Shown here one piece after another: positions 19,147 to 31,899 of a DNA stretch of 32,114 nt. Both the position numbers and the translations under genes were made by a program. Numbering within the stretch: the stretch's first letter is position 1; every line of letters begins with the position of its first letter. The stretch lies in the IMG/VR virus record IMGVR_UViG_3300023179_000331, positions 1 through 32,114 of that record; one strand, given 5' to 3'. Source of the stretch: a virus. Under the pieces are notes generated by a model. That model saw only the letters and a list, made by a program, of their open reading frames with translations. It made no database searches and was not told the DNA's origin.

Positions 19147-20480
19147 AGTCTAGCCCTTCTCTTTGTCTTCTGTGATGCCCACATATCATTCAATGTGGCC
19201 GTATTGGTCCTGCCCACAATTAGCGGGCGCTCGCTCGCCATGACCTTCGGGAGCGCTTCGCCCCGCCAAGCAACAGCCAGCATTCTAAATGCATCTGCCG
19301 GATGGCTGCACCAATTGTGTTTGGGAGCCGATCGGAACGCCTTCTTGTCTTCATCGTACTCGCGTTCATACTGGCGCAATGCCTCAATGCCTTCAGCGCA
19401 TTTGCGTTCGTCGAAATAGCACTTGGGCAGCGTCATACGCACAGCCTGAATGCCGTCTTGTACGCCCAGGTCAGGCACAACATTGATATTTGCTAGACCA
19501 AGGTGTTCAGCCAGTTGCTCAATGATTGACTTACCTTGAGCTGCCAGAGTCTTAGCTCGCGCATCATGCGGCAAGTAATGCTTGCCGTAATGGTAAGGCT
19601 TATTGACAACAACTTCAGCAATATCAGAAATACTAGCGCCGGAAACAGCGTAATAATCGATAACATGGATTTCATTGCGGGCCACCTGATACCACCAGAT
19701 TGCTGTGTCATCACGAAAGCCCAAGTCCCAAGCCGTGTAAGTTGGCAAGCTGGGATCATAGGCAACTTCTCTAATGCGGCCCTGATCCTGAGCCTCGCGC
19801 ATCTCGACACCATAGAACGCGCCTAGAATTGCAGCTTCAAAGCTGCATTCATATTCCTGCATGTACTGGTCGGGCGTGATCTGCGCCTTGACGGCTTCAA
19901 GTTCGTACCGGGGCAACAGACCGCTATCCGTAGCCGTCAGCCTGAGAAGAAACCAATCTTTAGGGTTTTTCTTGGCGTCTGAGTAAATGTCCCAGAATTG
20001 GTTCTTTCCTTTGGGCGTACCAGCAAAAACCGCCCAGCCCTGCTTGTCAGACAGCGTGGGACGAATGACATGGCCCCATACAGAAGGCCGAAAATCGCCA
20101 TATTCGTCCATAAAGATGCCGTCAAAGCCAAGACCACGCATGGCATCAGCGTTATCAGCGCCAAAGAGCCGAATACGTCCGCCAGTGACCAAATCAATTT
20201 GCAATTCGGCTTCATTGGACGCCTTGGTGATCGGTGCGCTAAACCGCTTGAGATAATCCCAAGCTACAGACTTAGCCTGACTGCGGAACGGCGCTATGTA
20301 CGCAAACTGCGGGCTGACCGACTTACAAGTGATCGCCGCCCGTATGATGTCGTTAATGGCTGCCACAGTCTTGCCCGCCCGGCGGTGCGCCACAAGGCAA
20401 GCCCACCGCTGGGTGCGGTCATGGAAGGGCATGAACGCAGAACGCGGTTCGTAGCCAATGCTGATTTCCTTAACCGCCAT
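19143..20480 (-). CDS. terL: Terminase large subunit
   Basis: This 445-residue packaging motor has an N-terminal ATPase and a C-terminal nuclease. It shows Walker A HRRAGKT (residues 32-38), Walker B GIFMDEY (about 121-127) and motif III AGTPKGKN (about 153-160). The RNase H-like nuclease starts at TAWDLGFRDDTAIW (catalytic Asp about 252), with HYLPHDARAKT and SHPADAFRMLAVAWR further on. The length is typical of podophage large terminases. The gene starts six bases after the small-subunit gene. It would cut and pump DNA into the prohead through the portal encoded downstream. Confidence 0.95.
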   Translation of the reverse strand: MAVKEISIGYEPRSAFMPFHDRTQRWACLVAHRRAGKTVAAINDIIRAAITCKSVSPQFAYIAPFRSQAKSVAWDYLKRFSAPITKASNEAELQIDLVTGGRIRLFGADNADAMRGLGFDGIFMDEYGDFRPSVWGHVIRPTLSDKQGWAVFAGTPKGKNQFWDIYSDAKKNPKDWFLLRLTATDSGLLPRYELEAVKAQITPDQYMQEYECSFEAAILGAFYGVEMREAQDQGRIREVAYDPSLPTYTAWDLGFRDDTAIWWYQVARNEIHVIDYYAVSGASISDIAEVVVNKPYHYGKHYLPHDARAKTLAAQGKSIIEQLAEHLGLANINVVPDLGVQDGIQAVRMTLPKCYFDERKCAEGIEALRQYEREYDEDKKAFRSAPKHNWCSHPADAFRMLAVAWRGEALPKVMASERPLIVGRTNTATLNDMWASQKTKRRARL

Positions 20481-20486
20481 CCGATT

Positions 20487-20789
20487 TTACTTTTTAGCGT
20501 CAAGCCACTTCACAACCAGTTCAACCGGGCCTTCGTCCTTGCCCGTCATCTCATGGCGGGCCAGCTTTGGCACATGGTACTCAATAAGGTCCGAGAAGCA
20601 CTTGATCGCAGCCAGAGGGCCGTCGCGGTCATGGACTTCATCCAGCCACTCCTGGAGCCTGTCAGCGTTACCATCAACAAAACGGGCAATCGCCTCACGG
20701 GCGTTCTGGGTCGATTTGTTCTTAACGCCCTTGCGACGGCCAGGGTTGCCTTTTTTGAACTGAGCGTGTTTGGGAGGAGGCGCGGCCAT
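20487..20789 (-). CDS. terS: Terminase small subunit
   Basis: This 100-residue basic protein begins MAAPPPKHAQFKKGNPGRRK, then GVKNKSTQNAREAIARF. The F-x-KGNPG-R-KG-x-NK pattern (DUF5681-like) is common in small terminases. A helix (DRLQEWLDEVHDRDGPLAAI) and a C-terminal EGPVELVVKWLD follow, the latter resembling the large-terminase contact region. It sits immediately ahead of the large subunit and overlaps the upstream mini-gene by one base (TAATG). The role is to recognise phage DNA and regulate the large subunit. The family call depends partly on position. Confidence 0.83.
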   Translation of the reverse strand: MAAPPPKHAQFKKGNPGRRKGVKNKSTQNAREAIARFVDGNADRLQEWLDEVHDRDGPLAAIKCFSDLIEYHVPKLARHEMTGKDEGPVELVVKWLDAKK

Positions 20790-20959
20790 TAGATGTCGTC
20801 CCTTTTCATGGTTTTCATAGCGCGGGCCAGCTTTGGACCTTTGTCCGCCTGGTTGAACTCTTTGGCGACTTTGACCGGAATGCCAGCTTTCTTGGCAATT
20901 TTCGGGTCATGTGCCGCCGCAGCCATGAATCGACGCTGTTTGTTCGATGTCGAAGGCAT
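20789..20959 (-). CDS. Small basic phage protein (KQRRFMAAAAHDP type), 56 aa
   Basis: The product begins MPSTSNKQRRFMAAAAHDP, continues IAKKAGIPVKVAKEFNQADK and ends MKRDDI. This is a very widespread phage mini-protein (S-x-KQ-x-RFM, HDP, AKEF-x-ADKG), often beside terminase or head genes. It is the first gene of the morphogenesis operon, about 30 bases downstream of the -10 element of the promoter. Its stop shares a base with the terminase small-subunit start (TAATG). The function is unknown; it may bind nucleic acid. Confidence 0.8.
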   Translation of the reverse strand: MPSTSNKQRRFMAAAAHDPKIAKKAGIPVKVAKEFNQADKGPKLARAMKTMKRDDI

Positions 20960-20989
20960 ATCGCACCAGATTTAGGTGAATCCAGCAAG

Positions 20990-21018
20990 AAAATACGCTT
21001 GATGCAGATTACAGTCAA
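20990..21018 (-). promoter_or_regulatory. Sigma70-type promoter for the morphogenesis operon
   Basis: Read on the minus strand: TTGACT (21018-21013), a 17-base spacer, then TATTTT (20995-20990). Five of six -35 bases and four to five of six -10 bases match the consensus, at ideal spacing. Transcription would begin near 20983, some 24 bases ahead of the first ATG. A GAATC site at 20978-20982 lies just past the expected start. Confidence 0.65.
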
Positions 21019-21160
21019 TATATGGGGGCGGACATGAGAAAAAGTCATAATATGGTAGGGTGAAAATATTTGTACGGGGGGTTGATAGCAATCGCGGACC
21101 CACCCCGTCGAAGAATTTTTTGAGAACCAATCTCAAATCCCATGCTACCGGGCACCATTC

Positions 21161-21178
21161 CAATGATATCAATGGGTT
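21161..21178 (+). promoter_or_regulatory. Operator-like 18-bp element, copy 1
   Basis: The sequence CAATGATATCAATGGGTT matches the copy at 21711 at 15 of 18 positions. Its GATATC core makes it close to palindromic. It lies upstream of the leftward promoter, in a place where a repressor or activator could act. Confidence 0.5.
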
Positions 21179-21188
21179 AGCATACCTA

Positions 21189-21203
21189 TGTTGCAATGCA
21201 ACA
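21189..21203. repeat. Perfect 15-bp odd palindrome TGTTGCA-A-TGCAACA
   Basis: Seven-base arms surround one central base. A related element with six-base arms, GCTGCA-T-TGCAGC, lies at 21673-21685. Both could be protein-binding half-site pairs. Confidence 0.55.
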
Positions 21204-21243
21204 CGATTTCCCATAATAGACGTTATACGCAGATCGTTGAAAT

Positions 21244-21261
21244 AACCCAATGAATACAATG
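21244..21261 (-). promoter_or_regulatory. Operator-like 18-bp element, copy 2 (reverse orientation)
   Basis: On the minus strand it reads CATTGTATTCATTGGGTT, matching the copy at 21711 at 16 of 18 positions. It shares the CATTGGGTT end seen in copy 3. Confidence 0.5.
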
Positions 21262-21422
21262 AACTGACCTATTCGGTCACGCCGTCAATTGAGGCAATTG
21301 CAACCGCAAGGTGCATTAACCCCGATCGGGGCGAGGCAATCGGGGCAGGGGTAACGCCAGCCGCCTGGGCTATGGGTATGCGGGCGGGGTAACGATTGCC
21401 GCTGGGCAAGGCTGCCAGCCCC

Positions 21423-21448
21423 GCAGAATAACAAGCTGGTTATTCTGC
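21423..21448. other. Hairpin with 10-bp perfect stem
   Basis: GCAGAATAAC pairs with GTTATTCTGC across a six-base AAGCTG loop. A competing pairing, CCAGC upstream with GCTGG spanning the loop, would exclude this stem. No U-rich tail follows, so it is not a standard terminator. It lies directly before the CCGGACAT repeat cluster. Confidence 0.6.
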
Positions 21449-21500
21449 TCCCTTCTCAGCCAGGACGAGACGGACATTTAGAACCGGACATCCGGACAAG

Positions 21501-21524
21501 ACACCGTACCTATAGGTACGGTGT
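21501..21524. repeat. Perfect 24-bp palindrome within the iteron cluster
   Basis: The left half ACACCGTACCTA is followed immediately by its exact reverse complement TAGGTACGGTGT, with no spacer. Symmetry extends outward with a small internal loop and one bulge: CCGGACA on the left (21492-21498) and TGTCCCGG on the right (21529-21536). It could be a dimer-binding operator or a cruciform/hairpin origin element. Confidence 0.85.
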
Positions 21525-21710
21525 GCGTGTCCCGGCTAGATGCGATGCCTTGTCCTACCGGACATCACGGTAGTATTTGGCGGTCAAAACCGGACATTTA
21601 GCCCGGTTTTAGGACATCCACGTATTTCCTTGCGAACCGTTATCAAATGTCCGGTTTTGGACCCAAATGACCGCTGCATTGCAGCATGGTTCGTAAAAAT
21701 AGGTGCAATC

Positions 21711-21728
21711 CATTGAAATCATTGGGTT
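21711..21728 (+). promoter_or_regulatory. Operator-like 18-bp element, copy 3
   Basis: CATTGAAATCATTGGGTT lies between the last two CCGGACAT repeats, upstream of the rightward early genes. It shares 15 of 18 bases with copy 1 and 16 of 18 with copy 2. Confidence 0.5.
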
Positions 21729-21846
21729 TTTAGGGGTTGGTTCCGGCAGAAAGTCATGATAATCGCAGATGTCCGGTCATTCGCCTCTTTCTGCTCTCTC
21801 CAGCCGCCAAAAATAATATCCCTCTGCCCCTTGCGCCTCCCGTAAT

Positions 21847-21863
21847 CATGAGTTTTACTCATG
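21847..21863 (+). other. Short hairpin/palindrome upstream of the first early gene
   Basis: CATGAGT and ACTCATG pair across a TTT loop (7 bp). It ends about 24 bases before the GAAAGGA ribosome binding site of the first rightward gene, so it could be an operator or an mRNA leader structure. Confidence 0.45.
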
Positions 21864-21900
21864 GCACACCGAATCAACGGTGCATCGAAAGGACCGCCAC

Positions 21901-22068
21901 ATGGTTTTCATGCTCGAATACGCCCAAAACTACAATCGCCGGTTTTCTGGCTGGGTCATTGCTGACACGTTCGCAACAGAGGCCCTTGCTCGCGATGCGG
22001 CGCAGCACATTCGCGGCGTGGAAGGCGATGACTGGCAAATTACGCCGATCAGCGAGGACGAACTCTAG
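21901..22068 (+). CDS. Small early-type protein, 55 aa
   Basis: This is the first gene of the rightward operon. It reads MVFMLEYAQNYNRRFSGWVI, with AARDAAQ-like helical and acidic C-terminal parts (DDWQITPISEDEL). I chose this ATG because GAAAGGA lies seven bases upstream; the in-frame upstream ATG has no such site. Small acidic proteins at the start of early operons are often host-takeover factors, but no function can be assigned here. Confidence 0.6.
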   Translation: MVFMLEYAQNYNRRFSGWVIADTFATEALARDAAQHIRGVEGDDWQITPISEDEL

Positions 22069-22079
22069 CCACACCAGGC

Positions 22080-22095
22080 GGGGGCTTCGGCCCCC
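22080..22095 (+). other. GGGGGC-UUCG-GCCCCC hairpin between early genes
   Basis: Six GC pairs close a UUCG tetraloop in its most stable C(UUCG)G setting. It lies in the 51-base gap after the first early gene, ahead of the next ribosome binding site (GAAAGGA). No U-rich tail follows, so it is more likely a pause, mRNA-stability or partial-termination element than a strong terminator. Confidence 0.6.
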
Positions 22096-22119
22096 AGCCC
22101 CCCTGAAAGGACCGCAATT

Positions 22120-22296
22120 ATGCAAAATTTTCCCGACGATTTCCGCCTTGTTTGGTTGCCAGAATACGCTGGTTTGACCGGCGAATACGAACTGCAGTGG
22201 CTTAATCAGGATGGAGATTACGAAACTGTAAAGTTTTCCCATGACCCGGAAGCCCTTGTTGCGCTGGCGCTTGAATTACGGGGGCCGCTAACATGA
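22120..22296 (+). CDS. Small acidic early-type protein, 58 aa
   Basis: The product starts MQNFPDDFRLVWLPEYAGL and contains GEYELQWLNQDGDYETVKFS, ending ALALELRGPLT. It has the same GAAAGGACCGC leader as the first early gene (GAAAGGA about eight bases before the ATG). Its stop overlaps the next ATG as ATGA. It is acidic and compact with no known domain. Confidence 0.65.
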   Translation: MQNFPDDFRLVWLPEYAGLTGEYELQWLNQDGDYETVKFSHDPEALVALALELRGPLT

Positions 22297-22436
22297 CCTG
22301 CTACATCCCCCCGCCCCTACGCCCCAGCTCAATCCGCCGTATTGCGGGATTGGCGGCGGGCATACTGGCTATGTCCGCCATGTTTGGCGCTATCGCCATG
22401 ATTATGTTCATCATTTCCGCAATGTTGGAGAACTGA
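22293..22436 (+). CDS. Small single-pass membrane protein, 47 aa
   Basis: The product has a short Pro/Arg N-terminus (PPPLRPSSIRR) followed by one hydrophobic helix (IAGLAAGILAMSAM, then GAIAMIMFIISAM). The positive-inside pattern predicts a cytoplasmic N-terminus. It is coupled to the previous gene by ATGA overlap and ends one base before the next ATG. Early phage membrane peptides can act in superinfection exclusion or lysis timing, but there is no direct evidence here. It is too short for usual ORF cut-offs. Confidence 0.65.
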   Translation: MTCYIPPPLRPSSIRRIAGLAAGILAMSAMFGAIAMIMFIISAMLEN

Positions 22437-22437
22437 C

Positions 22438-22686
22438 ATGACCTGGTATTTCGTCTGCCTGCCAGACGGTCAAGTTTGCAATCGTTTCAATAACTTACAC
22501 GATCTGACGGACTTTATTCGCGATTACGACGTCACGGGGGCTGACTTTTACCGCGCTGAAGACGGCAAATGGACCCAGATCAACGGGCTGGTCGATGACT
22601 GCTTGGAGGAGGCTAGGCTAGAGGCTCACTACGATGACAATCATTTTGAGTGGGTTAGTTCGCCAGAGAAGATTGGTCGAACATGA
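22438..22686 (+). CDS. Acidic early-type protein, 82 aa
   Basis: The product starts MTWYFVCLPDGQVCNRFNNL and is rich in Asp and Glu (for example NGLVDDCLEEARLEAHYDDN). It looks like a small alpha/beta fold of unknown family. It lies one base after the membrane peptide stop and overlaps the next gene as ATGA. The strong acidity suggests either a DNA mimic or a protein-binding factor; this is only a suggestion. Confidence 0.6.
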   Translation: MTWYFVCLPDGQVCNRFNNLHDLTDFIRDYDVTGADFYRAEDGKWTQINGLVDDCLEEARLEAHYDDNHFEWVSSPEKIGRT

Positions 22687-23294
22687 CCGATTATCGCGTC
22701 ACCGTGACGGTAAAAAACGCCCGTATCTTGCGGGCAATGGAAAAGGCCGGGTTTGATAGTGTGGCAGCTTTGGCTAGGGCTATGGACATCAGTACCACTA
22801 CTTTGCACACGTTGCTGTCTCTGAGGCGCTCGCCTCTTTCACGCGGGCGCGGACCGAAAGGCAACGACAGCAATAGGCCATTGCGTTGGATTCCTACAGT
22901 TGAAAAGCTGTCTTTGATACTCAAAGTACCCGTTGAGGAGCTATTCAGCCCGGCACAGCGCAACCCGTCTGGGTCTTTGAATCGTAAGAGCATTGACGTA
23001 TCGGAAACAGATGTGCGGGCTTACATTGCAAGTGCGTCATACACTGCTCCCGCGCTTGAAGACGGATTAATCAAAAAAGACACGCTTAGAAAAATTATCA
23101 TTGAGGCAAAGTTAGACGCCCGCGAAGATGAAATTATTGCGGGTACGTTTTTTGAAGATAAATACGCCCCAGATTTTGCGGAAAAGTTTGGCATTTCAAG
23201 AACTCGGTCTGACCAAATAAGAAATAGGGCGCTGCGGAAGCTGAAGGCTGCGGCTGATAGGCTAAATGTTGGCAGCGCGGGGTTGTTCATATGA
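22683..23294 (+). CDS. XRE-like HTH fused to sigma70 region-4-like domain (regulator)
   Basis: Residues about 10-85 read like an XRE/Cro-type DNA-binding domain: ILRAMEKAGFDSVAALARAM, DISTTTLHTLLSLRRSPLS and VEKLSLILKVPVEELFSP. Residues about 145-195 resemble sigma70 region 4: AREDEIIAGTFFEDKYAPDF, then AEKFGISRTRSDQIRNRALR and KLKA. The second matches the F-G-I-S-R-x-R-x-x-Q-I-x-x-x-A-L-R-K-L pattern that recognises -35 elements. At 203 residues the regions 2 and 3 of a real sigma factor are absent, so it is more likely a transcription regulator than a full sigma. It is coupled by ATGA to both neighbours. It could bind one of the operator-like elements upstream. Confidence 0.78.
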   Translation: MTDYRVTVTVKNARILRAMEKAGFDSVAALARAMDISTTTLHTLLSLRRSPLSRGRGPKGNDSNRPLRWIPTVEKLSLILKVPVEELFSPAQRNPSGSLNRKSIDVSETDVRAYIASASYTAPALEDGLIKKDTLRKIIIEAKLDAREDEIIAGTFFEDKYAPDFAEKFGISRTRSDQIRNRALRKLKAAADRLNVGSAGLFI

Positions 23295-23476
23295 CACCCA
23301 AATCCCGCAAACAACATTACCGCAAGACGCCTGGCCGTTGCCAGGCTTGCGGGTCGCGGCTGGTCACAGGTGACTGGCACCGCCCAGGCTCAGGCGGGAG
23401 CATACAGTGCGCCCATTGCCGCCCTAAGTTTGTAAATAACCTTGAAAATGTTGATATTGATATGGAGACACCATGA
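23291..23476 (+). CDS. Small zinc-ribbon-like protein, 61 aa
   Basis: Two CxxC knuckles (RCQACGSRL and QCAHCRPKF) are spaced about 21 residues apart, a treble-clef or zinc-ribbon arrangement. The rest is basic at the N-terminus and acidic at the C-terminus. It is coupled by ATGA overlaps on both sides. It directly follows the XRE/sigma-like regulator and may act with it. Function unknown. Confidence 0.65.
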   Translation: MTPKSRKQHYRKTPGRCQACGSRLVTGDWHRPGSGGSIQCAHCRPKFVNNLENVDIDMETP

Positions 23477-23655
23477 CCGAATCATCAGCCCGCATTGCGC
23501 TGGCCGAATTGGCCCAGGGCCGCACCCAGGACGAGTACATTGCGCTGGTATGGGCGCAGCGTTACCCTAATTCCAGTTCCGCTGCGTCGCCTGGCTGGCC
23601 GTTTAAACATAGCGAAGGCGTCGAACAGCCCAGCAAATTAAGGAAAGTCAAATGA
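23473..23655 (+). CDS. Small hypothetical protein, 60 aa
   Basis: The product starts MTESSARIALAELAQGRTQD and has a short helix followed by a Ser/Pro-rich segment (YPNSSSAASPGWPF) and a basic end. No family is recognised. The evidence for coding is the ATGA overlaps with both neighbours. Confidence 0.5.
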   Translation: MTESSARIALAELAQGRTQDEYIALVWAQRYPNSSSAASPGWPFKHSEGVEQPSKLRKVK

Positions 23656-23912
23656 AAGCCGCCGACTTCCTGTCACAGGTTGCCCTTATCGTGCGCGAGC
23701 GCGGCGAAGTGTATGGCGACCCACGGGCGAACCTTGGCGACACGGCAGCCCGCTGGTCAGCTACGCTAGGCCACAAGGTCACGCCAGCGCAGGTCTGCCT
23801 TTGTATGGTGGATTTGAAGATGTCGCGGCTGAAGGCCAGCCCGCGGCACCTAGATTCATTGCAAGACATTTGTGGTTACATCAGCCTTTTGGCTGAAATT
23901 GTGACCGACTAA
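23652..23912 (+). CDS. DUF6378-like phage protein, 86 aa
   Basis: The motifs IVRERGEVYGDPRANLGDTA, RWSATLGHKVTPAQVCLCMV and DLKMSRLKASPRHLDSLQDI, followed by CGYISLLAEI, match a widespread small phage family (DUF6378, as I recall it). Its ERG-x-x-YGDP start and D-x-x-GY end are reminiscent of all-alpha nucleotide pyrophosphohydrolase-like folds. The metal-binding E-x-x-E motifs of MazG are not obvious, so activity is uncertain. It is the last gene of the first rightward block, followed by hairpins. Confidence 0.72.
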   Translation: MKAADFLSQVALIVRERGEVYGDPRANLGDTAARWSATLGHKVTPAQVCLCMVDLKMSRLKASPRHLDSLQDICGYISLLAEIVTD

Positions 23913-23916
23913 GCAT

Positions 23917-23940
23917 CTGCCGACTTCCCACAGACGGCAG
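23917..23940 (+). other. Short hairpin after the early gene block
   Basis: CTGCCG pairs with CGGCAG across a 12-base loop just downstream of the 86-residue gene's stop. It is weak alone but lies next to a stronger terminator-like hairpin. Confidence 0.4.
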
Positions 23941-23946
23941 GAGCGG

Positions 23947-23986
23947 TTATTCCCCCGGTAAACTTGGCGGTTCGCCGGGGGGATAA
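23947..23986. terminator. Bidirectional terminator-like hairpin between convergent genes
   Basis: TTATTCCCCCGG pairs with CCGGGGGGATAA (12 pairs including one G-T) across a 16-base loop. Its outer pairs are A/T-rich. It sits exactly between the rightward block and the leftward primase-helicase, whose stop codon follows immediately. On both strands the stem ends in an AU-rich stretch, consistent with bidirectional intrinsic termination, although the U-tract is short. Confidence 0.65.
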
Positions 23987-25930
23987 TTATCGCTCGATCA
24001 CCCACACATCTGGCGATTTCTCGTATATCTTCTTGGCTGCCTTCAGCTTGTTCAACACTCTGTTGATGGCGCGGCGCACGTTGTCTGGGTTGTCGCCGCC
24101 TAGCGGCTTGGCTTCTGTCCGCATCTCATGTGTTGTGACTGGCTCGCCTGAATCCAACATCCGCAAGATCATGCTGCTGTACTTGCCTGACTTCAGGTTT
24201 TCGGCAGCTTCGCGGGCCTTGTCAGAGAAGTTGGCGACTAGGCTCGTCTGGCGTTCACCATGCTCGTTTACGCCAAGGTCAACGCTTTCCATATCAAAGT
24301 AATATGGCTGCTCTGGGCGTTCGCCGTCCTTCATCTTGGCCACAATCATTTTGCATGACAGGGCTTCTGGATCTGAGCGTTGGACTGAGAGCATGGCGTC
24401 CAGGTTGGCTGCGATGGCTGAAGACCCGCGTGGCCTGTTGGCTGCGTCCACGTTGTAGCCTGTGTGGTGAATTATCATGACGGTGCAATTGAAGGGCGCT
24501 CGTAAGTGTTGGTTGACCGCCCGAAAGAAGTCGCTGATCTTTGTGGCGTCATTCTCATCACCGCCGCCAAACATCTGGGATAGCGTGTCCAGCACGATCA
24601 AGGTGGGCGGGACGGGCATTTCGGCAATGTCCATGCGTAAGCTGGTCATTTCCTCTTGGACGGTCAGATTCAATGGGGTAATGCAAATGTTAAACCCCGG
24701 CACAAACTCTTGATTCAAATGTGTCTTTGCCCATGCGTGAGCGCGTCGATAGATACCGCCGCCGCCTTCTGCGGCGCAATATACGACTGGGCCTTGCTTG
24801 GTCCGCAGCCCCATCCATTCCAGGCCAGAGCAAATGTGCAGCGCAGCCGATAGGGCCACAAATGACTTGAATGTTTGGCTGGCCCCGAACAGGCACATCA
24901 TTGCGTCTTGTGGGATGACCCCATTGACCACCCAGTCCACGTTGGCCGTGCGCTCCTTTAGCTGCTCCATTGACATGACCAACTTGGGGAACGGGTTGGG
25001 CGCTGGCTTGTCCTCTGGGGCAAACTTGCCGGCAGATTCAACCATGCGGACCAGATCAGGCCCAATGCGGACCAGCCAGCGGTCCATATCAGGCCCAGCA
25101 ACGGGCGGCTTGCTTGCCATCATGATTGACCGCAAGTGATTTACTACAGCCCCACGGTGCATCCCAGAGGCCACCATAGACGCGCTGATCTTCAGCAGAG
25201 CGTCATGGTATGACCGCTGGGACAGGTCTGGGTTGATGATGTCTTTGTATAGCTGGGCGGCGTCTCCTGTACCGGCCTTGATGTCTTCTTGGGCTTTGGC
25301 TTTACCTACAGCAGCCCGGAGATCTTCCAGCTTGATGCCAAAGACTGCGGCTGCGTCCGCCAGGCTGTAGACATCGCGGAAGTCGCACTTCAACATCTTG
25401 GTGGTGAAGATGCCGTCTGGTCTAGCCTTAGTGTTTGACCCCACCGGTAGCCGTGCGTAGCGGACTGGATTGTTGCCGTTGTTGTCGGCAGAGATCAGCT
25501 TGTCGTCTGCCATCTTCTGCAAGACGGCTTTGATGAGCGGTAAATTTTGGGTATCTTTGTCCTCTGGGTCCAGCAGCATACCAATCTGGACGCTATTCGG
25601 ACTGGTTTGGAGCTTATAGGACACCTTGCCCAGTACGGCGTCTGGGTCTGCGTCGTCGGCCACCAGGACGGCTAGGCGCCCAAATGTCTCGTTGGACCGG
25701 CGCTTTGTACCGTCGCGGCTGTAGAGGACAGATACGCAGAAATATGTATTATCTTCTTGACGTTGATCGAGAACAGCCTTTTCATTGTCGGTTCCCCCGT
25801 AAGCGTTACCGCTCCAAACTCCGGGCAGCGCCTTATTGGGGTCTGATGCAAATGCCGTAGTCCAACCAAAGTCGTAGTCTGCCCGCAGCTTGCCATAGAC
25901 GGCAGCCAGGAACTCAGAATTACGCAGCAT
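23987..25930 (-). CDS. Replicative primase-helicase (RepB-like primase plus RepA-like ATPase)
   Basis: This 647-residue protein has two parts. The N-terminal ~200 residues look like a RepB-type archaeo-eukaryotic primase: FGRLAVLVADDADPDAVLGK (acidic pair about 92-93), PNSVQIGMLLDPED and YARLPVGSNTKARP. From about residue 330 a RecA-fold hexameric helicase follows. It has Walker A GASQTFKS (349-356), Walker B LIVLDTLSQM (about 444-453), IIHHTGY (about 486-492) and RGSSAIAANLDA. The C-terminus is a winged-helix-like tail. It should unwind DNA and prime synthesis at the phage origin. It is on the opposite strand to its neighbours. A GAGG lies seven bases upstream of the ATG. Confidence 0.88.
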   Translation of the reverse strand: MLRNSEFLAAVYGKLRADYDFGWTTAFASDPNKALPGVWSGNAYGGTDNEKAVLDQRQEDNTYFCVSVLYSRDGTKRRSNETFGRLAVLVADDADPDAVLGKVSYKLQTSPNSVQIGMLLDPEDKDTQNLPLIKAVLQKMADDKLISADNNGNNPVRYARLPVGSNTKARPDGIFTTKMLKCDFRDVYSLADAAAVFGIKLEDLRAAVGKAKAQEDIKAGTGDAAQLYKDIINPDLSQRSYHDALLKISASMVASGMHRGAVVNHLRSIMMASKPPVAGPDMDRWLVRIGPDLVRMVESAGKFAPEDKPAPNPFPKLVMSMEQLKERTANVDWVVNGVIPQDAMMCLFGASQTFKSFVALSAALHICSGLEWMGLRTKQGPVVYCAAEGGGGIYRRAHAWAKTHLNQEFVPGFNICITPLNLTVQEEMTSLRMDIAEMPVPPTLIVLDTLSQMFGGGDENDATKISDFFRAVNQHLRAPFNCTVMIIHHTGYNVDAANRPRGSSAIAANLDAMLSVQRSDPEALSCKMIVAKMKDGERPEQPYYFDMESVDLGVNEHGERQTSLVANFSDKAREAAENLKSGKYSSMILRMLDSGEPVTTHEMRTEAKPLGGDNPDNVRRAINRVLNKLKAAKKIYEKSPDVWVIER

Positions 25931-25942
25931 TGAAGCCTCGTT

Positions 25943-26170
25943 TTAGATGCCGGAAAGCATTTTGATTGTGATTTTGATTTTGTGCTTGTCTGCGTACTTC
26001 AGGATTTTGGGCCAGTATTTCTGCGGGACGCGCCCACTCGTACCGCGCTCAACTAGCCACAGCGAAACACCTGATTGTGTTAGACCCACGAGCTTGGCGG
26101 TCTTCGTAACCCCGCCCAGCATCGTACAGATTGTGAAGGCCGGTTCACACCGACCCTTGATCGTTGCCAT
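25943..26170 (-). CDS. Small helix-turn-helix protein, candidate repressor, 75 aa
   Basis: I chose the ATG giving MATIKGRCEPAFTICTMLGG, which precedes the HTH segment VTKTAKLVGLTQSGVSLWLV. After this comes ERGTSGRVPQKYWPKILKYA and a basic C-terminus. TAKLVGLTQSGVSLW has the spacing of a YdaS/Cro-type recognition helix. A longer frame starting 144 bases upstream runs through the divergent promoter region and is less likely. It is the first gene of the leftward primase operon, 12 bases ahead of the primase-helicase. The 18-bp palindrome upstream could be its operator. Confidence 0.68.
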   Translation of the reverse strand: MATIKGRCEPAFTICTMLGGVTKTAKLVGLTQSGVSLWLVERGTSGRVPQKYWPKILKYADKHKIKITIKMLSGI

Positions 26171-26250
26171 TGCTAAAACCTTTTGAGACGGCGCGGACCA
26201 TGAGGTGCTTTGCAGAGGATGACAAGACCAAAAAATAACTAAAACCCATA

Positions 26251-26280
26251 TTGATTTTAAATTGTAACCTAGACTACAAC
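26251..26280 (+). promoter_or_regulatory. Candidate promoter for the recombination operon
   Basis: TTGATT (26251-26256) and TACAAC (26275-26280) are 18 bases apart, in the gap ahead of the Sak4-like gene. The -10 match is only four of six. A GATTC (GANTC) site lies at 26293-26297. Confidence 0.4.
26262..26279. promoter_or_regulatory. Operator-like 18-bp imperfect palindrome
   Basis: TTGTAACCTAGACTACAA is symmetric at 14 of 18 positions, with arms TTGTA/TACAA and a CTAG centre. It overlaps the spacer and -10 of the candidate rightward promoter and lies about 90 bases upstream of the divergent HTH gene. Confidence 0.55.
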
Positions 26281-26313
26281 CGTTCCCGAAATGATTCGAT
26301 AGGAGGCTGATCA

Positions 26314-27042
26314 ATGGCGTTTGACTTGAAATCTATTCGTAAGAATGAGGCTATCTCTAGCCCGCGTATCCTGTGCTATGGGGTTCCAGGGATTGGGAAA
26401 TCCACGTTTGGTGCATCTGCACCCAACCCCATATTTATCTGCACGGAAGACGGCCTTGGCTCGCTGAAAGTCGATAGCTTTCCGCTGGCCCAAACGTCAG
26501 ATGATGTACTGGCAGCCATTGCTTCGCTGTATTCCAGTAAACATGAGTTCAGAACTGTGGTCATTGATTCGGTAGACTGGCTTGAGGCCATGATTGCCAA
26601 GGAAATTGAGACTAAGTATGACGCCAAGGACTTGGCCTATGGCCGTGCTGCCGTGTACGCCGTTGGACGTATGCGGGAGATACTGGACGGCCTGAACGCC
26701 CTGCGTAACGACAAGGGCATGATCGTCATTCTGATTGCCCACTGCCAGATACGCCGCTTTGATAGCCCAGAAGTTGAACCATACGACAGATACATGCCCA
26801 AGTTGCAGGACAAGGCTAACGCTGTTGTCCGCGAGTGGGCTGATGCCGTGCTGTTCTGCAACTATAAAACCGTTGTGAAGAAAGACGATGTTGGGTTCAA
26901 TCAGACCAACAATCGCGGCATCAGCACTGGCGAGCGTCTGCTGTTCACCAGTGAGAAGCCCGCATACATGGCTAAGAACCGCTATTCCATGCCTGAATCC
27001 ATCCCGCTGTCTTGGGATGACTTTGCCGCTGCAATTAATTAA
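26314..27042 (+). CDS. Sak4-like RecA-fold ATPase (AAA_24), phage recombinase
   Basis: The product shows RILCYGVPGIGKSTFGASAP with Walker A GVPGIGKST (23-31), Walker B RTVVIDSVDWLE (about 79-90), DKGMIVILIAHCQIRRFDSP (motif near sensor 1) and PKLQDKANAVVREWADAVLF. These features belong to phage nucleotide-binding proteins related to Sak4, a minimal RecA/Rad51-type single-strand annealing recombinase. At 242 residues the length is typical. A consensus AGGAGG lies seven bases before the ATG, implying strong expression. It is followed by a DUF669 putative ssDNA-binding gene and a Cas4-like nuclease, the usual partners of Sak4. Confidence 0.85.
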   Translation: MAFDLKSIRKNEAISSPRILCYGVPGIGKSTFGASAPNPIFICTEDGLGSLKVDSFPLAQTSDDVLAAIASLYSSKHEFRTVVIDSVDWLEAMIAKEIETKYDAKDLAYGRAAVYAVGRMREILDGLNALRNDKGMIVILIAHCQIRRFDSPEVEPYDRYMPKLQDKANAVVREWADAVLFCNYKTVVKKDDVGFNQTNNRGISTGERLLFTSEKPAYMAKNRYSMPESIPLSWDDFAAAIN

Positions 27043-27059
27043 CCGAGGAGAACTGCACT

Positions 27060-27527
27060 ATGCCTATCATCGACTTTGACGCTGTTGAACTCACTGAATT
27101 TGCACCGCGTACTTTTGAAGCCCTACCGCGCGGCGACTACACTGCCATGATTACCGATAGCGTACTGAAGGACACTAAGTCTGGCCTGGGCCAGTACATC
27201 GCGCTGACGATCGAGATTATCGACGGTTCGTATTCTGGCCGCAAGATTTGGGACAACCTTAACGTCAAGAACCCTAATCCTACCGCTGAGAACATCGCTA
27301 AAGCTGGCCTTACCCGCTATTTCCAATCGTGCGGTCAGGACTTGGAGAAGGGCGCTGACACCACTGCGCTGTACAACATCCCGTTTAAGCTGACGCTGGG
27401 CATTGATCGCAATGATGCAACCCGCAACACCGTGACTGGTTCTGGCCCGCTTGGCTCTGCCAAGAAGCCCAAGCCCACAGTTGACCGCGAGGCTGTTGCC
27501 TCTGGCAAGAAGCCCTGGGAGCGGTGA
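27060..27527 (+). CDS. DUF669 family protein, probable ssDNA-binding partner
   Basis: The product reads EALPRGDYTAMITDSVLKDT, then LGQYIALTIEIIDGSYSGRK and IWDNLNVKNPNPTAENIAKA. This is the DUF669 pattern (P-x-G-x-Y, K-x-x-x-G, G-R-x-(IV)-W-x-x-x-(NV)). DUF669 proteins are OB-fold-like and usually sit beside phage recombinases, acting probably as ssDNA-binding proteins. The end is basic and Pro-rich (KKPWER). A GAGGAGA precedes the ATG by eight bases, and the gene lies 17 bases after the Sak4-like gene. Confidence 0.82.
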   Translation: MPIIDFDAVELTEFAPRTFEALPRGDYTAMITDSVLKDTKSGLGQYIALTIEIIDGSYSGRKIWDNLNVKNPNPTAENIAKAGLTRYFQSCGQDLEKGADTTALYNIPFKLTLGIDRNDATRNTVTGSGPLGSAKKPKPTVDREAVASGKKPWER

Positions 27528-27534
27528 TTTTGTA

Positions 27535-27963
27535 ATGGCAATCAACGCCAAAGAAATCAGTCAGTTTAAAAAACTGATGATGATGACAACATCAGACAAT
27601 GATCCTGAAGCGTTGATTGCTATTCGCAAGGCAAATACCATTTTAAAAAACAATAAAGTAAATTGGGACGAACTTTTCAAACAAGTTAATTTCAATAGTT
27701 TAAGCGTTAAGAATACTCATGGTTTTAGAGATAGTTATAAAAGTTACAGTCCTAAATATCCATCTGAGCCTAAGACATCATCAAACAGGACCACTAGCTC
27801 GGACATATTAAAACCCTTGCAATTTGCAATGGACCGCTGCGAAGGCAGTTTTTATGATTTTTTAGAGAGTTTAAAATATCAATTTCAAAACAAGGGTTGG
27901 TTGTCCGAAGCCCAGGTTGCGGCAATCATGAAAAGCGCAGTGCGTAGTGGCTGGCGCGGTTAA
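27535..27963 (+). CDS. DUF2786-like protein, 142 aa, AT-rich gene
   Basis: The N-terminal ~50 residues (KEISQFKKLMMMTTSDNDPE, then ALIAIRKANTILKNNKVNWD) fit the DUF2786-like pattern in which a helix with DP-x-E-A-x-x-A precedes a second helix. The middle is Ser/Lys/Tyr-rich and probably disordered. The end (AMDRCEGSFYDFLESLKYQF, then WLSEAQVAAIMKSAVRSGWR) is helical. The gene is visibly richer in A and T than its neighbours, which suggests separate acquisition. It sits between the DUF669 and nuclease genes. The ATG is seven bases after the previous stop. Confidence 0.65.
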   Translation: MAINAKEISQFKKLMMMTTSDNDPEALIAIRKANTILKNNKVNWDELFKQVNFNSLSVKNTHGFRDSYKSYSPKYPSEPKTSSNRTTSSDILKPLQFAMDRCEGSFYDFLESLKYQFQNKGWLSEAQVAAIMKSAVRSGWRG

Positions 27964-27976
27964 AAAAGGGTAAAAA

Positions 27977-29002
27977 ATGACAATTATACCGGAGCCGATT
28001 AACACAACAGCAAGTAAAATTTACGATTGGTATGAATCCAAGCGTGAAGGACACCGCGAACACTTGGGCGCGTCCTTGATTGGGCATGAGTGTGATCGGT
28101 TTCTGTGGCTGACGTTTCGCTGGGCTGCGTCCCCCGTTTTCGGGGGGCGCGTCTTGCGTCTATTTGGAACTGGTAAGCGGGAGGAGCAGCGTGTTTACGA
28201 AGAGTTACAGGCCATTGGGGTTGAACTACACACCGAGCAAGACGGCAAGCAAATCGAGTGCCGTGACCGTCGTGGTCATTTCGGTGGTAGTGTTGACGGC
28301 ATTGGCCGGGGCTTTCCTGAAGGCCCGGAGACTTGGGCTGTTCTAGAGATCAAGACGGCCAACTTCTCAGCGTCCAAGAAGCTAAAGGACGCTGGCGTTG
28401 AGAAGGCCAAGCCACAGCATTACGCCCAAATGATGATCTATATGGGTATGCTAAAGCTGGACCGGGCGCTTTACCTGAACGTCAACAAGAACACGGACGA
28501 CATCTACACCGAATGGGTGCCATTTGATGAAGGCACATTTAACGACCTTATGCGCCGCGCTGACCGTATCATTGGCGCAACTGAGCCTGGTCCCAAGGTT
28601 GCCGATAGCGCGTCAAAGATGCCCTGTAAGTTTTGCGACTTTGCGCCGTTCTGCCATGACACGCAGCCCGCTGAGTTTAACTGCCGTACCTGTTGCCACT
28701 CTACGCCCAGGGACGGCGGTAAATGGCAATGCCATGAGCATGACAAGGAGTTGTCGGTTGAAGACCAGCGCAAGGGCTGTGATAGCCACCTGTTCATCCC
28801 GGCCTTGGTACACGGAACAGCTATTGATGCTGATGTGGGATTCGTCGAGTATTTTGTTGAAAGCACGGGCGAGACATTTAAGAACGGCCCCGCCCACACG
28901 CCCAGCAAGGAAGTTGTCAAGCGCGGGCGCAAGAAGAAGGCCGTTGTTGATCTAGGCCCAGAGATTTCATTGGATGATTTAAATGACGACATACCCTTTT
29001 AG
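27977..29002 (+). CDS. Cas4-like PD-(D/E)XK nuclease with Fe-S cysteines
   Basis: The catalytic core shows GHFGGSVDGIG (Asp107), AVLEIKTANF (Glu124 and Lys126) and KPQHYAQMMIYMGML (Gln147, Tyr149). This is the RecB/Cas4-type PD-(D/E)XK arrangement. One cysteine near the start (SLIGHECDRFLW, Cys39) and three after the core (MPCKFCDFAPFC, Cys217, 220 and 226) match the 4Fe-4S pattern of Cas4/AddB nucleases. A further cysteine cluster (NCRTCCHS, WQCHEHD, KGCDSHLF) forms an extra zinc-like module. It probably resects DNA ends for the Sak4-like recombinase. It lies 13 bases after the DUF2786-like gene. No cas1 or cas2 is nearby, so a CRISPR role is unlikely. Confidence 0.85.
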   Translation: MTIIPEPINTTASKIYDWYESKREGHREHLGASLIGHECDRFLWLTFRWAASPVFGGRVLRLFGTGKREEQRVYEELQAIGVELHTEQDGKQIECRDRRGHFGGSVDGIGRGFPEGPETWAVLEIKTANFSASKKLKDAGVEKAKPQHYAQMMIYMGMLKLDRALYLNVNKNTDDIYTEWVPFDEGTFNDLMRRADRIIGATEPGPKVADSASKMPCKFCDFAPFCHDTQPAEFNCRTCCHSTPRDGGKWQCHEHDKELSVEDQRKGCDSHLFIPALVHGTAIDADVGFVEYFVESTGETFKNGPAHTPSKEVVKRGRKKKAVVDLGPEISLDDLNDDIPF

Positions 29003-29009
29003 GCATCAC

Positions 29010-29219
29010 ATGCTAGTCAGCCAGCGCGAGAGCGCGTTACACGCCTTGATCTTGGAACGGCAAGCCCGCAATGAGGATACGCTATATCTGAATCATCACG
29101 CCAAATCAGTTGAGCTAATCCAGTACAATGCAAGCCGGGGCATGAGCCGTAAGGCAATGGCAAAAATATGGCCGTACAGGCTGCTAACATTGGTATTAGG
29201 GCATGAGGAGGCGAAATGA
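29010..29219 (+). CDS. Small helical protein, 69 aa
   Basis: The product reads MLVSQRESALHALILERQAR, contains YLNHHAKSVELIQYNASRGM and ends with a basic stretch (RKAMAKIWPYRLLTLVLGHE). I prefer this ATG, seven bases after the nuclease stop. A start 27 bases upstream would overlap the nuclease gene. The stop overlaps the next ATG as ATGA. The SRGMSRKAMAKIW segment resembles a short HTH-like helix pair. No family is recognised. Confidence 0.55.
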   Translation: MLVSQRESALHALILERQARNEDTLYLNHHAKSVELIQYNASRGMSRKAMAKIWPYRLLTLVLGHEEAK

Positions 29220-29506
29220 CTGACATGATCAAACGGGTGGCGACGGCGCTTCGGCAATCGGACTACACTGATTGTGAACCGGAGAATGTTATGATCCCCA
29301 TTTGGTGCTATTTTGACCAAGCCCGCGCTGCCATCGCCGCCATGCGGGAGCCTACGGGTGCCATGTATATGGCCGGGGGGATTGTCTCCCCATCTGCCCA
29401 TTTGGCTGACAAGGACTACAAGCCGTGTGGGACAAGAACCATTGGCGACATGGCGGCAAAGGCCGCGTGGGAAAAAATGATCGACGCCGCGCTGGAGGAA
29501 ATGTGA
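29216..29506 (+). CDS. Conserved alphaproteobacterial-phage small protein, 96 aa (paralogue A)
   Basis: The product starts MTDMIKRVATALRQSDYTD and contains ARAAIAAMREPTGAMYMAGG and MAAKAAWEKMIDAALEEM. It resembles small proteins common in alphaproteobacteria and their phages. It shares the same layout as the next gene: N-terminal helix, ARAAIAAMR, a short middle, and a C-terminal W-x-x-M-x-DAAL. The two genes are joined by a one-base overlap (TGATG). Function unknown. Confidence 0.6.
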   Translation: MTDMIKRVATALRQSDYTDCEPENVMIPIWCYFDQARAAIAAMREPTGAMYMAGGIVSPSAHLADKDYKPCGTRTIGDMAAKAAWEKMIDAALEEM

Positions 29507-29784
29507 TGGACATGATCGAGCAAGTAGAGCGAGCCGTTTACGCATCGCTTAAGGTCGAAGGGTTTTCGCATCAGGATTTTGATTTGTTGAATACATTTCA
29601 AAAAACGCAGGTCAATAAAATGGCCCGCGCCGCCATTGCCGCCATGCGTAACTGCACCCCGGCAATGCTAGACGCCGGATCCGCCGCACACCCGGCTGGT
29701 GGTTACGTTCGCGGTACACTTTTGACGGATATTATAGAGGCTGAGTGGGTGGCGATGTGTGACGCGGCGTTGGGGGAGAAATGA
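29506..29784 (+). CDS. Conserved small protein, 92 aa (paralogue B)
   Basis: The product starts MDMIEQVERAVYASLKVEGF and contains RAAIAAMRNCTPAMLDAGSA and WVAMCDAALGEK. It is a tandem paralogue of the preceding gene: MI-x-x-V-x-x-A, ARAAIAAMR, AM-x-x-AG and W-x-x-M-x-DAAL are shared. The ATG lies at the stop of the first copy and its own stop overlaps the RuvC-like start as ATGA. Function unknown. Confidence 0.6.
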   Translation: MDMIEQVERAVYASLKVEGFSHQDFDLLNTFQKTQVNKMARAAIAAMRNCTPAMLDAGSAAHPAGGYVRGTLLTDIIEAEWVAMCDAALGEK

Positions 29785-30260
29785 TTATTTTAGGCATAGA
29801 CCCCGGCCTGTCGGGCGCGTTGGCGTTCCTTGACACCAAGACAGGCATGATCGCGGTGGAGGATATGCCAGTCGTGACCGTCATGCGAAACCGCAAGGAA
29901 AAGCGGGAAGTCAGCGCCCAGTTGGTCGCGGCTATAGTGGTTAAACGGCATGTCGAGGCGGCCTTTCTAGAGAAGGTCAACGCAATGGCCGGTCAGGGCG
30001 TGTCGTCAGTCTTTAGCTTTGGACGCTCTGCGGGCATTATAGAAGGCGTCCTGGCGGCGTTCGACATCCCAACCACGCTGGTCACGCCACAGGCTTGGCA
30101 GAAGGCTATGGCCGTCAGGGACGGCAAGGACGGCAGCCGGGAGCGGGCTATGCAGCTATTCCCGGCCAGCGCGGAGCTATTCCAGCGAAAGAAGGACGAT
30201 GGTAGAAGCGATGCCGCGTTAATTGCCAAATATGGCGCAACACAAAAGGAAAGCCTATGA
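29781..30260 (+). CDS. RuvC-like Holliday junction resolvase
   Basis: This 159-residue RNase H-fold endonuclease shows the start ILGIDPGLSGALAFLD (Asp7), FLEKVNAMAGQGVSSVFSFG (Glu64) and DDGRSDAALIAKYG (Asp140/Asp144). SFGRSAGIIEGVLAAF lies between, as in bacterial RuvC. The length and acidic residues fit the phage/RuvC group. It would cut branched DNA before packaging or after recombination. Starts and stops overlap both neighbours as ATGA, and it ends the recombination module. Confidence 0.85.
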   Translation: MIILGIDPGLSGALAFLDTKTGMIAVEDMPVVTVMRNRKEKREVSAQLVAAIVVKRHVEAAFLEKVNAMAGQGVSSVFSFGRSAGIIEGVLAAFDIPTTLVTPQAWQKAMAVRDGKDGSRERAMQLFPASAELFQRKKDDGRSDAALIAKYGATQKESL

Positions 30261-30799
30261 ACCGATACCTGCTCACCGCTGCCGTATTGTGCGTTGCAGC
30301 CCCCGCCTATGCTGCGCCCAAGCTGGGCATTTGCCACGGCGAATATGCCCTATGTGCCGCCTCCAGCACGGAGGCCACCGGCCAGACTATGGTTGTCGGC
30401 GGCAAGACCTTCATGCAGGGCCATGCCGTCTGCCCCGTCCTGAAGGGCGAGAGCATTGCCGATCTTCACCTGACCGGCTCCTGTAAGGCCCCGTCAGTCC
30501 CCGGCGGCGTCTGGAGCCTGTTCAGCACGGCCACCAGCTACCCACAGGCCCCAAGCTGGGCTGTGGTCCCGGCTGTTCCCAGGACGTTTACCACTGCCCT
30601 GGGCCGTGGCTTGGGCATGTCCAACATGTGGTCATACCCCTGCGTCAAGCGTCCGCAGCCCGTCAACGGCGCTGTCTTGGCCGACTGCATTGGGCCGATT
30701 AATGAGTCCCCTTGGGACGGCGGCCATGTCCCGCCGGGTTCGTCTAACGTGACCGCTGCCCCTGTTGGCGCGTCTGATCCCGTGGGCGGCAATTACTGA
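30257..30799 (+). CDS. Secreted cysteine-rich protein, 180 aa
   Basis: The N-terminus MNRYLLTAAVLCVAAPAYA is a clear Sec signal peptide with an AYA|AP cleavage site. The mature part has six cysteines (GICHG, ALCAA, AVCPV, GSCKA, YPCVK, ADCIG), enough for three disulfides in the periplasm. It ends in a Pro/Gly-rich, probably disordered tail. It lies between the resolvase and the small 51-residue gene with ATGA and TGATG junctions. No domain is recognised. Exported phage proteins here could act on the envelope, in exclusion or in lysis. Confidence 0.65.
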   Translation: MNRYLLTAAVLCVAAPAYAAPKLGICHGEYALCAASSTEATGQTMVVGGKTFMQGHAVCPVLKGESIADLHLTGSCKAPSVPGGVWSLFSTATSYPQAPSWAVVPAVPRTFTTALGRGLGMSNMWSYPCVKRPQPVNGAVLADCIGPINESPWDGGHVPPGSSNVTAAPVGASDPVGGNY

Positions 30800-30954
30800 T
30801 GAAGTCCATCCGCGTCTCCATCGATTTTGACGTTGAGTATGACGATACCGAGCTGGGGGCTTTTGCCTACGCTATGGCGGTTGTCGATGAATTACTGAGC
30901 CTTGAGATTGATGGGGACGGGGTTAAAGTCGTGCAAACTAGGAGCCATTCGTGA
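30799..30954 (+). CDS. Small acidic protein, 51 aa
   Basis: The product reads MKSIRVSIDFDVEYDDTEL, then GAFAYAMAVVDELLSLEIDG, and ends KVVQTRSHS. It is short, acidic and beta/alpha in pattern. Its ATG overlaps the previous stop as TGATG and its stop overlaps the next GTG start. It is below usual ORF length cut-offs, but coupling on both sides supports it. Function unknown. Confidence 0.6.
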   Translation: MKSIRVSIDFDVEYDDTELGAFAYAMAVVDELLSLEIDGDGVKVVQTRSHS

Positions 30955-31427
30955 TCTGGGGCGAGAAAGACTGCGCCAGGCTGGCCGCTCTGGTAGCCAC
31001 CGGCATCAGCTACACGCTGATTGGCCGGAAAATGCACATCACCAAGAACGCGGCCATTGGCAAAGCGCGGCGTTTAAACTTGCAGAAGTCACCGGCCTCG
31101 TCCACGCCTATCAAATACAAGAAGTCCGTATATACGCCCAAGCCGCCCAAGCCCGCCAAACGCAAGATCATACAGACCAAGGCCATCCCGCCGACGCCGC
31201 CACCTGTGCCTGTCTCAGTACCCGAGATGCGGCTGGTCACGATGATGCAGCTAACAAGCCAGCATTGCCGCTATCCAATTGATACGCCTACAGAAATGCT
31301 ATTTTGTGGCCGCATACCGGACGGCCAGCCGCCCTATTGCAAGGCCCACGCCAAGCTGTGCTATATGCCGCCCCGCGAGCCTAACCGTTCCGAGAGAACT
31401 CTTTCGATTCAAGTTCAACTTCGCTGA
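30951..31427 (+). CDS. GcrA-like cell-cycle regulator (phage-encoded)
   Basis: The 158-residue product has the GcrA layout. The N-terminal HTH begins VIWGEKDCARLAALVATGIS and continues YTLIGRKMHITKNAAIGKAR, matching the W-x-x-x-x-x-x-L, G-x-S-x-x-x-I and RNA-x-IGK-x-x-R-L pattern. A long basic, Pro-rich linker follows. The C-terminal domain is LTSQHCRYPIDTPTEMLFCG, then PPYCKAHAKLCYMP, with Cys106, Cys119, Cys130 and His133. GcrA in alphaproteobacteria binds sigma70 and CcrM-methylated GANTC sites. The start is GTG. The 3' end overlaps the convergent endolysin gene by 47 bases. It probably redirects host or phage transcription. Confidence 0.85.
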   Translation: MIWGEKDCARLAALVATGISYTLIGRKMHITKNAAIGKARRLNLQKSPASSTPIKYKKSVYTPKPPKPAKRKIIQTKAIPPTPPPVPVSVPEMRLVTMMQLTSQHCRYPIDTPTEMLFCGRIPDGQPPYCKAHAKLCYMPPREPNRSERTLSIQVQLR

Positions 31428-31899
31428 CCCGCTTGCCCCAGCCTTTGCCAAATGTCGGCCATGTCGGCAGGGATTTAAGGAAATCCAAGCGGCGCTGGCT
31501 GTAGTCCTCAATAAACTCGACAGGATCGGCCTCTTGTATGGCCGCTAGGGTCTTGGGGCCAAGGCTGCCATCAACCTTCTGGTGCAGGACATACTGAGCC
31601 AGTTTAACTGCCCTGCCGGGGCCGGAATTGACCGCGCAATCGAACAAGCAATAATCCACCCCATGCGGCAGGTCATCCCCGTGGATAGTGTCCCAATAGC
31701 GGACCTTATAGACAGGCTGGACGGCCTCCTGCGTCAAGGCGCGCATATCCGCCTCCGACGCTGACTTGCCCGTGTGGGCGTCCCAGACGGCCTTTGTAAC
31801 GCCGCAGCAAGTCATGCCGCCGGGGTCGCTGGGGTGGTTCACAAAGCCGCCTTCGTGGCGCATCAGGAGCCGCATGGCGAAGTCAAAGGTCGGTTTCAT
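31381..31899 (-). CDS. Endolysin, GH108-type N-acetylmuramidase
   Basis: The product starts MKPTFDFAMRLLMRHEGGF, with the HEGGF-x-NHPSDPGG motif of the glycoside hydrolase 108 family (catalytic Glu in EGG). GVTKAVWDAHTG and YCLFDCAVNSGPGRAV follow, with a C-terminal DGSLGPKTLAAIQEADP segment that looks like a peptidoglycan-binding repeat. At 172 residues the length is typical. No signal peptide is visible, so a holin would be needed for export. The ATG overlaps the stop of the lipoprotein gene as ATGA; an upstream start (MPEGPMKP) is less likely. Confidence 0.87.
   Translation of the reverse strand: MKPTFDFAMRLLMRHEGGFVNHPSDPGGMTCCGVTKAVWDAHTGKSASEADMRALTQEAVQPVYKVRYWDTIHGDDLPHGVDYCLFDCAVNSGPGRAVKLAQYVLHQKVDGSLGPKTLAAIQEADPVEFIEDYSQRRLDFLKSLPTWPTFGKGWGKRVSEVELESKEFSRNG

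Follow-up and report, generated by a model that had tools for sequence, protein, structure and literature searches.

Short iterons around a covarying hairpin as a candidate replication origin in an uncultured aquatic phage

The control region of the phage described here contains a cluster of short repeats (iterons) around a hairpin, and this cluster is probably its origin of replication. The window, i.e. the whole stretch of DNA analysed, comprises 32,114 bp of an IMG/VR virus record. As proposed here, the winged helix at the C-terminus of the primase-helicase that the phage encodes would bind the iterons, the RepA-like helicase module would open the DNA at the origin, and the hairpin (21501-21524), which lies between inverted iterons, would be the single-strand initiation site for the AEP primase, modelled on the use of ssiA and ssiB by RepB' in RSF1010. 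We infer binding, melting, hairpin priming and origin use from observations at sequence level: the cluster itself, the covarying hairpin, a layout that is conserved while the iterons are swapped, the domain make-up of the primase-helicase, and a statistical association of iteron with winged helix. In parallel, these sites could be used as operators or for autoregulation of transcription.

The cluster is situated in a stretch of about 940 bp that has no credible gene, with leftward terS and terL on one side and rightward early genes on the other. Its features are as follows.

20960-21901, no strand: intergenic region holding the proposed origin, between divergent operons (leftward gene at 20789-20959; rightward genes beginning near 21902; conserved stretches in six aligned sequences)
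21470-21477, plus strand: degenerate iteron ACGGACAT (one-mismatch scan)
21484-21491, plus strand: iteron CCGGACAT (exact count; conserved in A4)
21492-21498, plus strand: iteron CCGGACA, forming the hairpin's outer left arm (relatives' cluster, alignment, folding)
21501-21524, no strand: perfect palindrome or hairpin ACACCGTACC-TATA-GGTACGGTGT, candidate ssi-like priming site (palindrome search; folding z -4.4; covariation)
21528-21535, minus strand: inverted iteron TGTCCCGG, forming the hairpin's outer right arm (alignment, covariation, layout count)
21558-21565, plus strand: iteron CCGGACAT (exact count)
21590-21597, plus strand: iteron CCGGACAT, in the left half (21585-21599) of a distal 15-bp inverted pair (exact count, inverted-repeat search)
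21647-21654, minus strand: iteron in the right half (21645-21659) of the distal 15-bp inverted pair (exact count, inverted-repeat search)
21769-21776, minus strand: outlying inverted iteron (exact count; conserved in the close-relative alignment)

A sequence-only reading of this DNA had reported five exact copies of an 8-bp motif in both orientations between 21470 and 21776, too many for chance recurrence, in otherwise non-coding DNA, and these points held. With both strands counted, the whole window contains five exact copies of CCGGACAT, all within 21484-21776, three on the plus strand (21484, 21558, 21590) and two on the minus strand (21647, 21769), and the rest of the window has none. In 100 dinucleotide shuffles the count averaged 1.15 and never rose above four. 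The perfect 15-bp inverted pair was likewise recovered, at 21585-21599 and 21645-21659. The near copies fared less uniformly: two one-mismatch copies, at 21470 (ACGGACAT) and 21492 (CCGGACAA), do lie inside the cluster, but the window as a whole has no excess of them (27 against 26.5 expected). Several short repeats clustered in non-coding DNA, the hallmark of an iteron origin, are present. A simple promoter and terminator scan gave results at chance level.

Other conserved elements were noted in the same region. An ATGAG-TTTTA-CTCAT dyad just ahead of the first early gene (21847-21862) is invariant in the close-relative alignment, a AAAAAGTCATAATATGG block near 21040 is strongly conserved there, and a 26-bp dyad (GCAGAATAAC...GTTATTCTGC) at 21423-21448 is shared, with altered centre, by three relatives (L010, L011, L018).

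The core feature of the cluster, overlooked in the earlier reading, is a perfect palindrome of 24 bp (21501-21524) with CCGGACA to its left and inverted TGTCC to its right. Its folding energy as single-stranded DNA is -16 kcal/mol (z -4.4). Among seven close sequences, of which six are distinct, 90 of 90 stem cells stay paired, and five pairs have changes on both sides; no shuffle out of 500 equalled this by any of the measures, and scores were far lower when the stem was slid. In one of four further contigs from a pattern scan (L179), the loop TATG breaks the perfect dyad and leaves the hairpin intact. The comparison was extended to 27 hairpins, hand-chosen as one per distinct form, with near-duplicates (L008-L011, L022, L042, L077, L104, L131, L133, L039), the distant L156-L159 group and a second element in L046 excluded. 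Their 315 stem cells comprise 303 Watson-Crick pairs, five G-T pairs and seven others; the right (3') arm has one to three extra bases in 26 of the 27, the exception (L037) being readable either way, and the loops differ (TATA in the window, TGTA, AAGT).

A hairpin ssi near iterons is a trait of IncQ/RSF1010-type origins, and its structure is present here; its use by the primase would follow by inference. One tight hairpin is conserved and the distal inverted pair is present but looser, where RSF1010-type origins have two ssi, one per strand; the GTG start motif of RSF1010 ssiA, judged by eye, varies at the 3' side of the hairpin. A protelomerase-type telomere, raised by the perfect palindrome, was dropped because the loops of relatives are asymmetric and the families scanned gave no protelomerase gene.

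Two other roles for the hairpin were weighed. It could act in RNA as a terminator or attenuator, the repeats being incidental, as its stable stem would allow; this is extremely improbable, since no U tract follows the stem, an Rfam scan gave no match, and G-T pairs are few (5 of 315 stem cells, in a set itself chosen by Watson-Crick stems). The relatives also call to mind a double-strand origin of the rolling-circle type, at which an HUH Rep would nick: several loops have TACTACG, as in the pMV158-family nick sequence TACTACGAC, and the loop with its downstream direct repeats resembles pMV158-type origins (PMC3387028). This is nevertheless very unlikely, given that loops vary and that the window has TATA rather than TACTACG; TACTACGAC itself was not found in the loop, the relatives having CTACG followed by T or C, and a cognate Rep_OBD initiator (PF01719, that HUH family alone) had matches at E<=10 in none of 11 records, most of them fragments.

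The reading as a replication origin would have had to yield if close relatives lacked the cluster. A primase-helicase search gave 12 contigs of 83-97% identity, and the cluster is held by all five that reach the control region (L008-L012), the other seven ending short of it; blocks of invariant bases appear in the control region when close relatives are aligned. Cumulative GC skew, another suggested check, was mixed in five longer relatives: one (G001) has a V-shape at the element and another (G002) has none, the measure being confounded by gene direction.

Wider relatives, i.e. other IMG/VR phages with the same primase-helicase, were sampled by a terminase scan and a primase-alignment scan (80 loci each, some in common with earlier scans). 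Many distant control regions are without CCGGACAT and have the identical layout built from another repeat, in the order iteron, hairpin (one to three extra bases in the 3' arm), inverted iteron, and then direct iterons, frequently spaced by about 10 bp. The alternative iterons, among which is also GCTCACTT, were assigned as follows.

Iteron CCCGACA: L029, L034, L100, L110
Iteron CCGTAACG: L019, L101; degenerate in L020
Iteron GGCTTACA: L030, L036
Iteron GCTCACTTA: L045
Iteron GCTTCACT: L043, L091
Iteron GTCCCATA: L072, L073
Iteron ACGGACAT: L127
Iteron of CGGTCA type: L041, L112

Of the 27 chosen loci, 25 have a direct copy left of the hairpin, 21 have an inverted copy close by on its right, and 26 have a direct copy farther to the right; the corresponding figures at random centres within these loci were 6%, 4.5% and 17%, a control that is partial because the iterons were picked next to hairpins, the positions themselves being unpicked. 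Many loci have direct copies at about +39 to +80 from the hairpin centre in 10-bp steps and then at about +102 to +107, and many have an inverted copy at about +114 to +135; positions past +170 in L030 are an end-of-sequence artefact. At least three copies of one of ten iteron patterns were found in 26 of 33 loci with at least 4 kb past a complete primase gene, a count that is a description rather than a test because the patterns were drawn from those same loci, which include same-contig pairs (L012/L022, L036/L108, L046/L104, L072/L131, L073/L133, L023/L121). By this motif count the other seven are without the element (L023, L105, L110, L111, L113, L121, L126), though in L110 it is present by inspection. 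In the control region of L046, two complete elements resembling the origin, one with CCGGACA and one with CCCGACA iterons, lie about 420 bp from each other.

Ten loci in bacterial genome contigs (L185-L194) were also checked, and arrays beside hairpins were found in four: L191 (Rubrivivax bin), L189 and the near-identical L192/L193 have arrays of CGGGACA (x13), CCCTGAC (x7) and ACGGCAC (x6), with hairpins, close to genes for RepA-like helicases.

The iteron sequence apparently changes together with the DNA-binding end of the primase-helicase. For 17 primases with assigned iterons, iteron similarity correlates at 0.55 with winged-helix identity and at 0.43 with the rest of the protein; the partial correlation with the winged helix given the rest is 0.38 (p 0.0045), and it is 0.36 (p 0.0195) in 15 dereplicated primases and 0.45 (p 0.010) without two far ones, the reverse partials being near zero or negative. 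These permutation tests ignore shared ancestry, and the iterons were picked by eye beside hairpins. Individual pairs illustrate the trend. L117, L102 (same contig as L037) and L040 have the iteron CCGGACA and L019 has CCGTAACG, with identities to L019 of 0.77-0.81 in the primase and 0.91-0.93 in the helicase and of 0.56-0.57 in the winged helix; for L117, the winged-helix type was seen before the iteron was sought. L036 and L100 (GGCTTACA versus CCCGACA) have identities of 0.71 (primase), 0.76 (helicase) and 0.35 (winged helix). A counterexample is L045 versus L091, with a nearly identical winged helix and visibly different iterons of only partly shared sequence.

A packaging site (pac or cos), read by the small terminase encoded next to it, can be set against the same data. 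The cluster is located roughly 0.7 kb upstream of the terS gene, and TerS identity is 90-100% across the closest phages that bear it. However, in 12 phages with terS the partial correlation of the iteron with the winged helix is 0.49 given TerS (p 0.0005) and 0.52 given TerL, whereas TerS adds nothing given the winged helix (-0.17, p 0.78); furthermore, of the listed loci that have a 71-73% identical terL and are without such a primase, only L049 and L054 scored just above the cut. A packaging site is therefore highly improbable.

The repeats might instead be operators through which a phage regulator would switch the divergent early and late promoters, with the hairpin as a dyad operator. They do lie between divergent operons, and a suitable regulator, a 203-aa protein with a Cro-like HTH joined to a sigma-70 region 4-like C-terminus, is encoded nearby (22683-23294, plus strand). 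L008, L010 and L012, however, lack that regulator at the corresponding position and retain the iterons; stem bases vary while pairing persists, and the TATG loop of L179 spoils the dyad and not the hairpin. Operators are thus unlikely, and the candidate replication origin of the sequence-only reading is favoured over them because the other iterons of distant relatives keep the layout and track the winged helix of the primase. When used as a query for relatives, the HTH protein gave none that could be confirmed.

The proposed initiator has the following parts, all on the minus strand.

23987-25930, minus strand: primase-helicase with AEP primase, RepA-like helicase and winged helix; proposed initiator (profile, structure and secondary-structure comparisons)
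25022-25930, minus strand: AEP primase domain, residues 1-303 (RepB' 3h20 E 1.3e-8; 3h25 Z 13.2; 6zp9 Z 14.0)
24194-24994, minus strand: RepA-like hexameric helicase domain, residues 313-579 (1g8y E 2.4e-10; 1olo Z 23.6)
23990-24184, minus strand: C-terminal winged helix, residues 583-647, proposed iteron reader, with its third helix at 615-631 (secondary structure; covariation with iterons)

The RepB/RepA-type primase-helicase named in the earlier reading was thereby borne out. The best Foldseek match to the model of residues 1-303 is RSF1010 RepB' (3h20), and VIA-align matched it to the S-2L PrimPol (Z 14.0; 3.4 A over 169) and to RepB' with initiator DNA (3h25; 3.0 A over 174). D92, D93 and D149 are invariant in 30 primase sequences and have the spacing of the catalytic aspartates of RepB', D77, D78 and D134 (PMC4434180); RepB' fold and the acidic residues of motifs I and III together mark the domain as a RepB'-like AEP primase. 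Pfam RepB_primase (PF16793) matches 15 of 30 relatives (best E 2.5e-6) and leaves the window protein itself unmatched. For the helicase domain, RSF1010 RepA (1g8y) is the sole PDB profile match, and the top VIA match (1olo) extends over 227 residues at 3.2 A; plasmid and phage collections gave distant helicase matches only. The C-terminus has the element order of a winged helix by secondary structure (whole-model pLDDT 77.7, pTM 0.44). One chain seems to combine three RSF1010 replication functions, the winged helix being, by analogy, the presumed equivalent of RepC.

The terminase is 41-44% identical to those of Rhodoferax phage P26218 and HTVC010P-type pelagiphages, and the right part of the window (20000-32114) had no megablast match among phages. 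An alphaproteobacterial host is suggested because the window encodes a homologue of the GcrA cell-cycle regulator (30951-31427, plus strand; PF07750, E 9e-22) and because 45-48% identical primases were found in two Phenylobacterium bins and one Caulobacteraceae bin. A PAPS reductase-domain gene (3659-4354, minus strand) is located amid structural genes.

A likely origin is located here in a group of uncultured aquatic phages related to HTVC010P. The site, the natural iteron/winged-helix pairs, and the comparison of L019 with L117, L102 and L040, which differ mainly in the winged helix, make its specificity testable by exchange. More tentatively, the locus may represent a distinct and widespread class of phage origin, in which inverted iterons frame a bulged hairpin and the sequence of these iterons is respecified with every change in the winged helix of a fused initiator of RepB'-RepA type. 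If so, related aquatic phages would fall into incompatibility groups like those of plasmids, and L046, with two origins of different iterons, would show a transition.

Fused initiators are known from other systems. ORF904 of pRN1 likewise combines an AEP primase, a helicase and a C-terminal winged helix in a single chain, and the pRN1 origin is also a stem-loop of low sequence and high structural conservation; replication of pRN1 and of phage BIP-1 is proposed to start at stem-loops. pRN1 differs by an SF3 helicase and a 100-nt stem-loop just 3' of the gene, and is without iterons in that account (PMC4234260). The P4 alpha protein similarly unites primase, helicase and an iteron-binding winged helix, but its primase is of the bacterial Toprim type and, in the same account, there is no hairpin (PMC4234260). 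The PrimQH family of the PrimPol-PV1 supergroup shares primase, ATPase (RepA-type in some) and C-terminal winged helix, which its authors suggested to read the origin (PMC5862659). The window protein has the RepA-type ATPase, the winged helix and a glutamine, Q115, that is invariant in 30 sequences, in motif II as assigned by eye (PrimQH denotes Gln/His in AEP motif II); the likeness is one of domain make-up, not tree placement, and no origin is described in the available part of that source. Origin reading by the winged helix of AEP-helicase fusions has already been suggested in print (PMC5862659); the literature consulted gave no binding site for this arrangement.

In RSF1010, RepC binds the iterons, RepA unwinds, and RepB' primes at the ssiA and ssiB hairpins (PMC4234260, PMC6925257, PMC4434180), and the IncQ-3 oriV contains iterons and two palindromes (PMC7557826). 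The phage locus resembles these origins in its iterons and short hairpin, RepB'-fold AEP primase and RepA-type helicase (PMC4434180, PMC7557826, PMC6925257). In contrast to RSF1010, where RepA, RepB' and RepC are separate, primase, helicase and winged helix are fused here; the iterons are 7-8 bp instead of about 20 bp and turn over between relatives, a single tight hairpin is nested between inverted iterons, and the present system is a phage, known here from sequence. With its fused initiator, and with short iterons that change fast around a tight and bulged hairpin, the locus is a variant rather than an IncQ origin.
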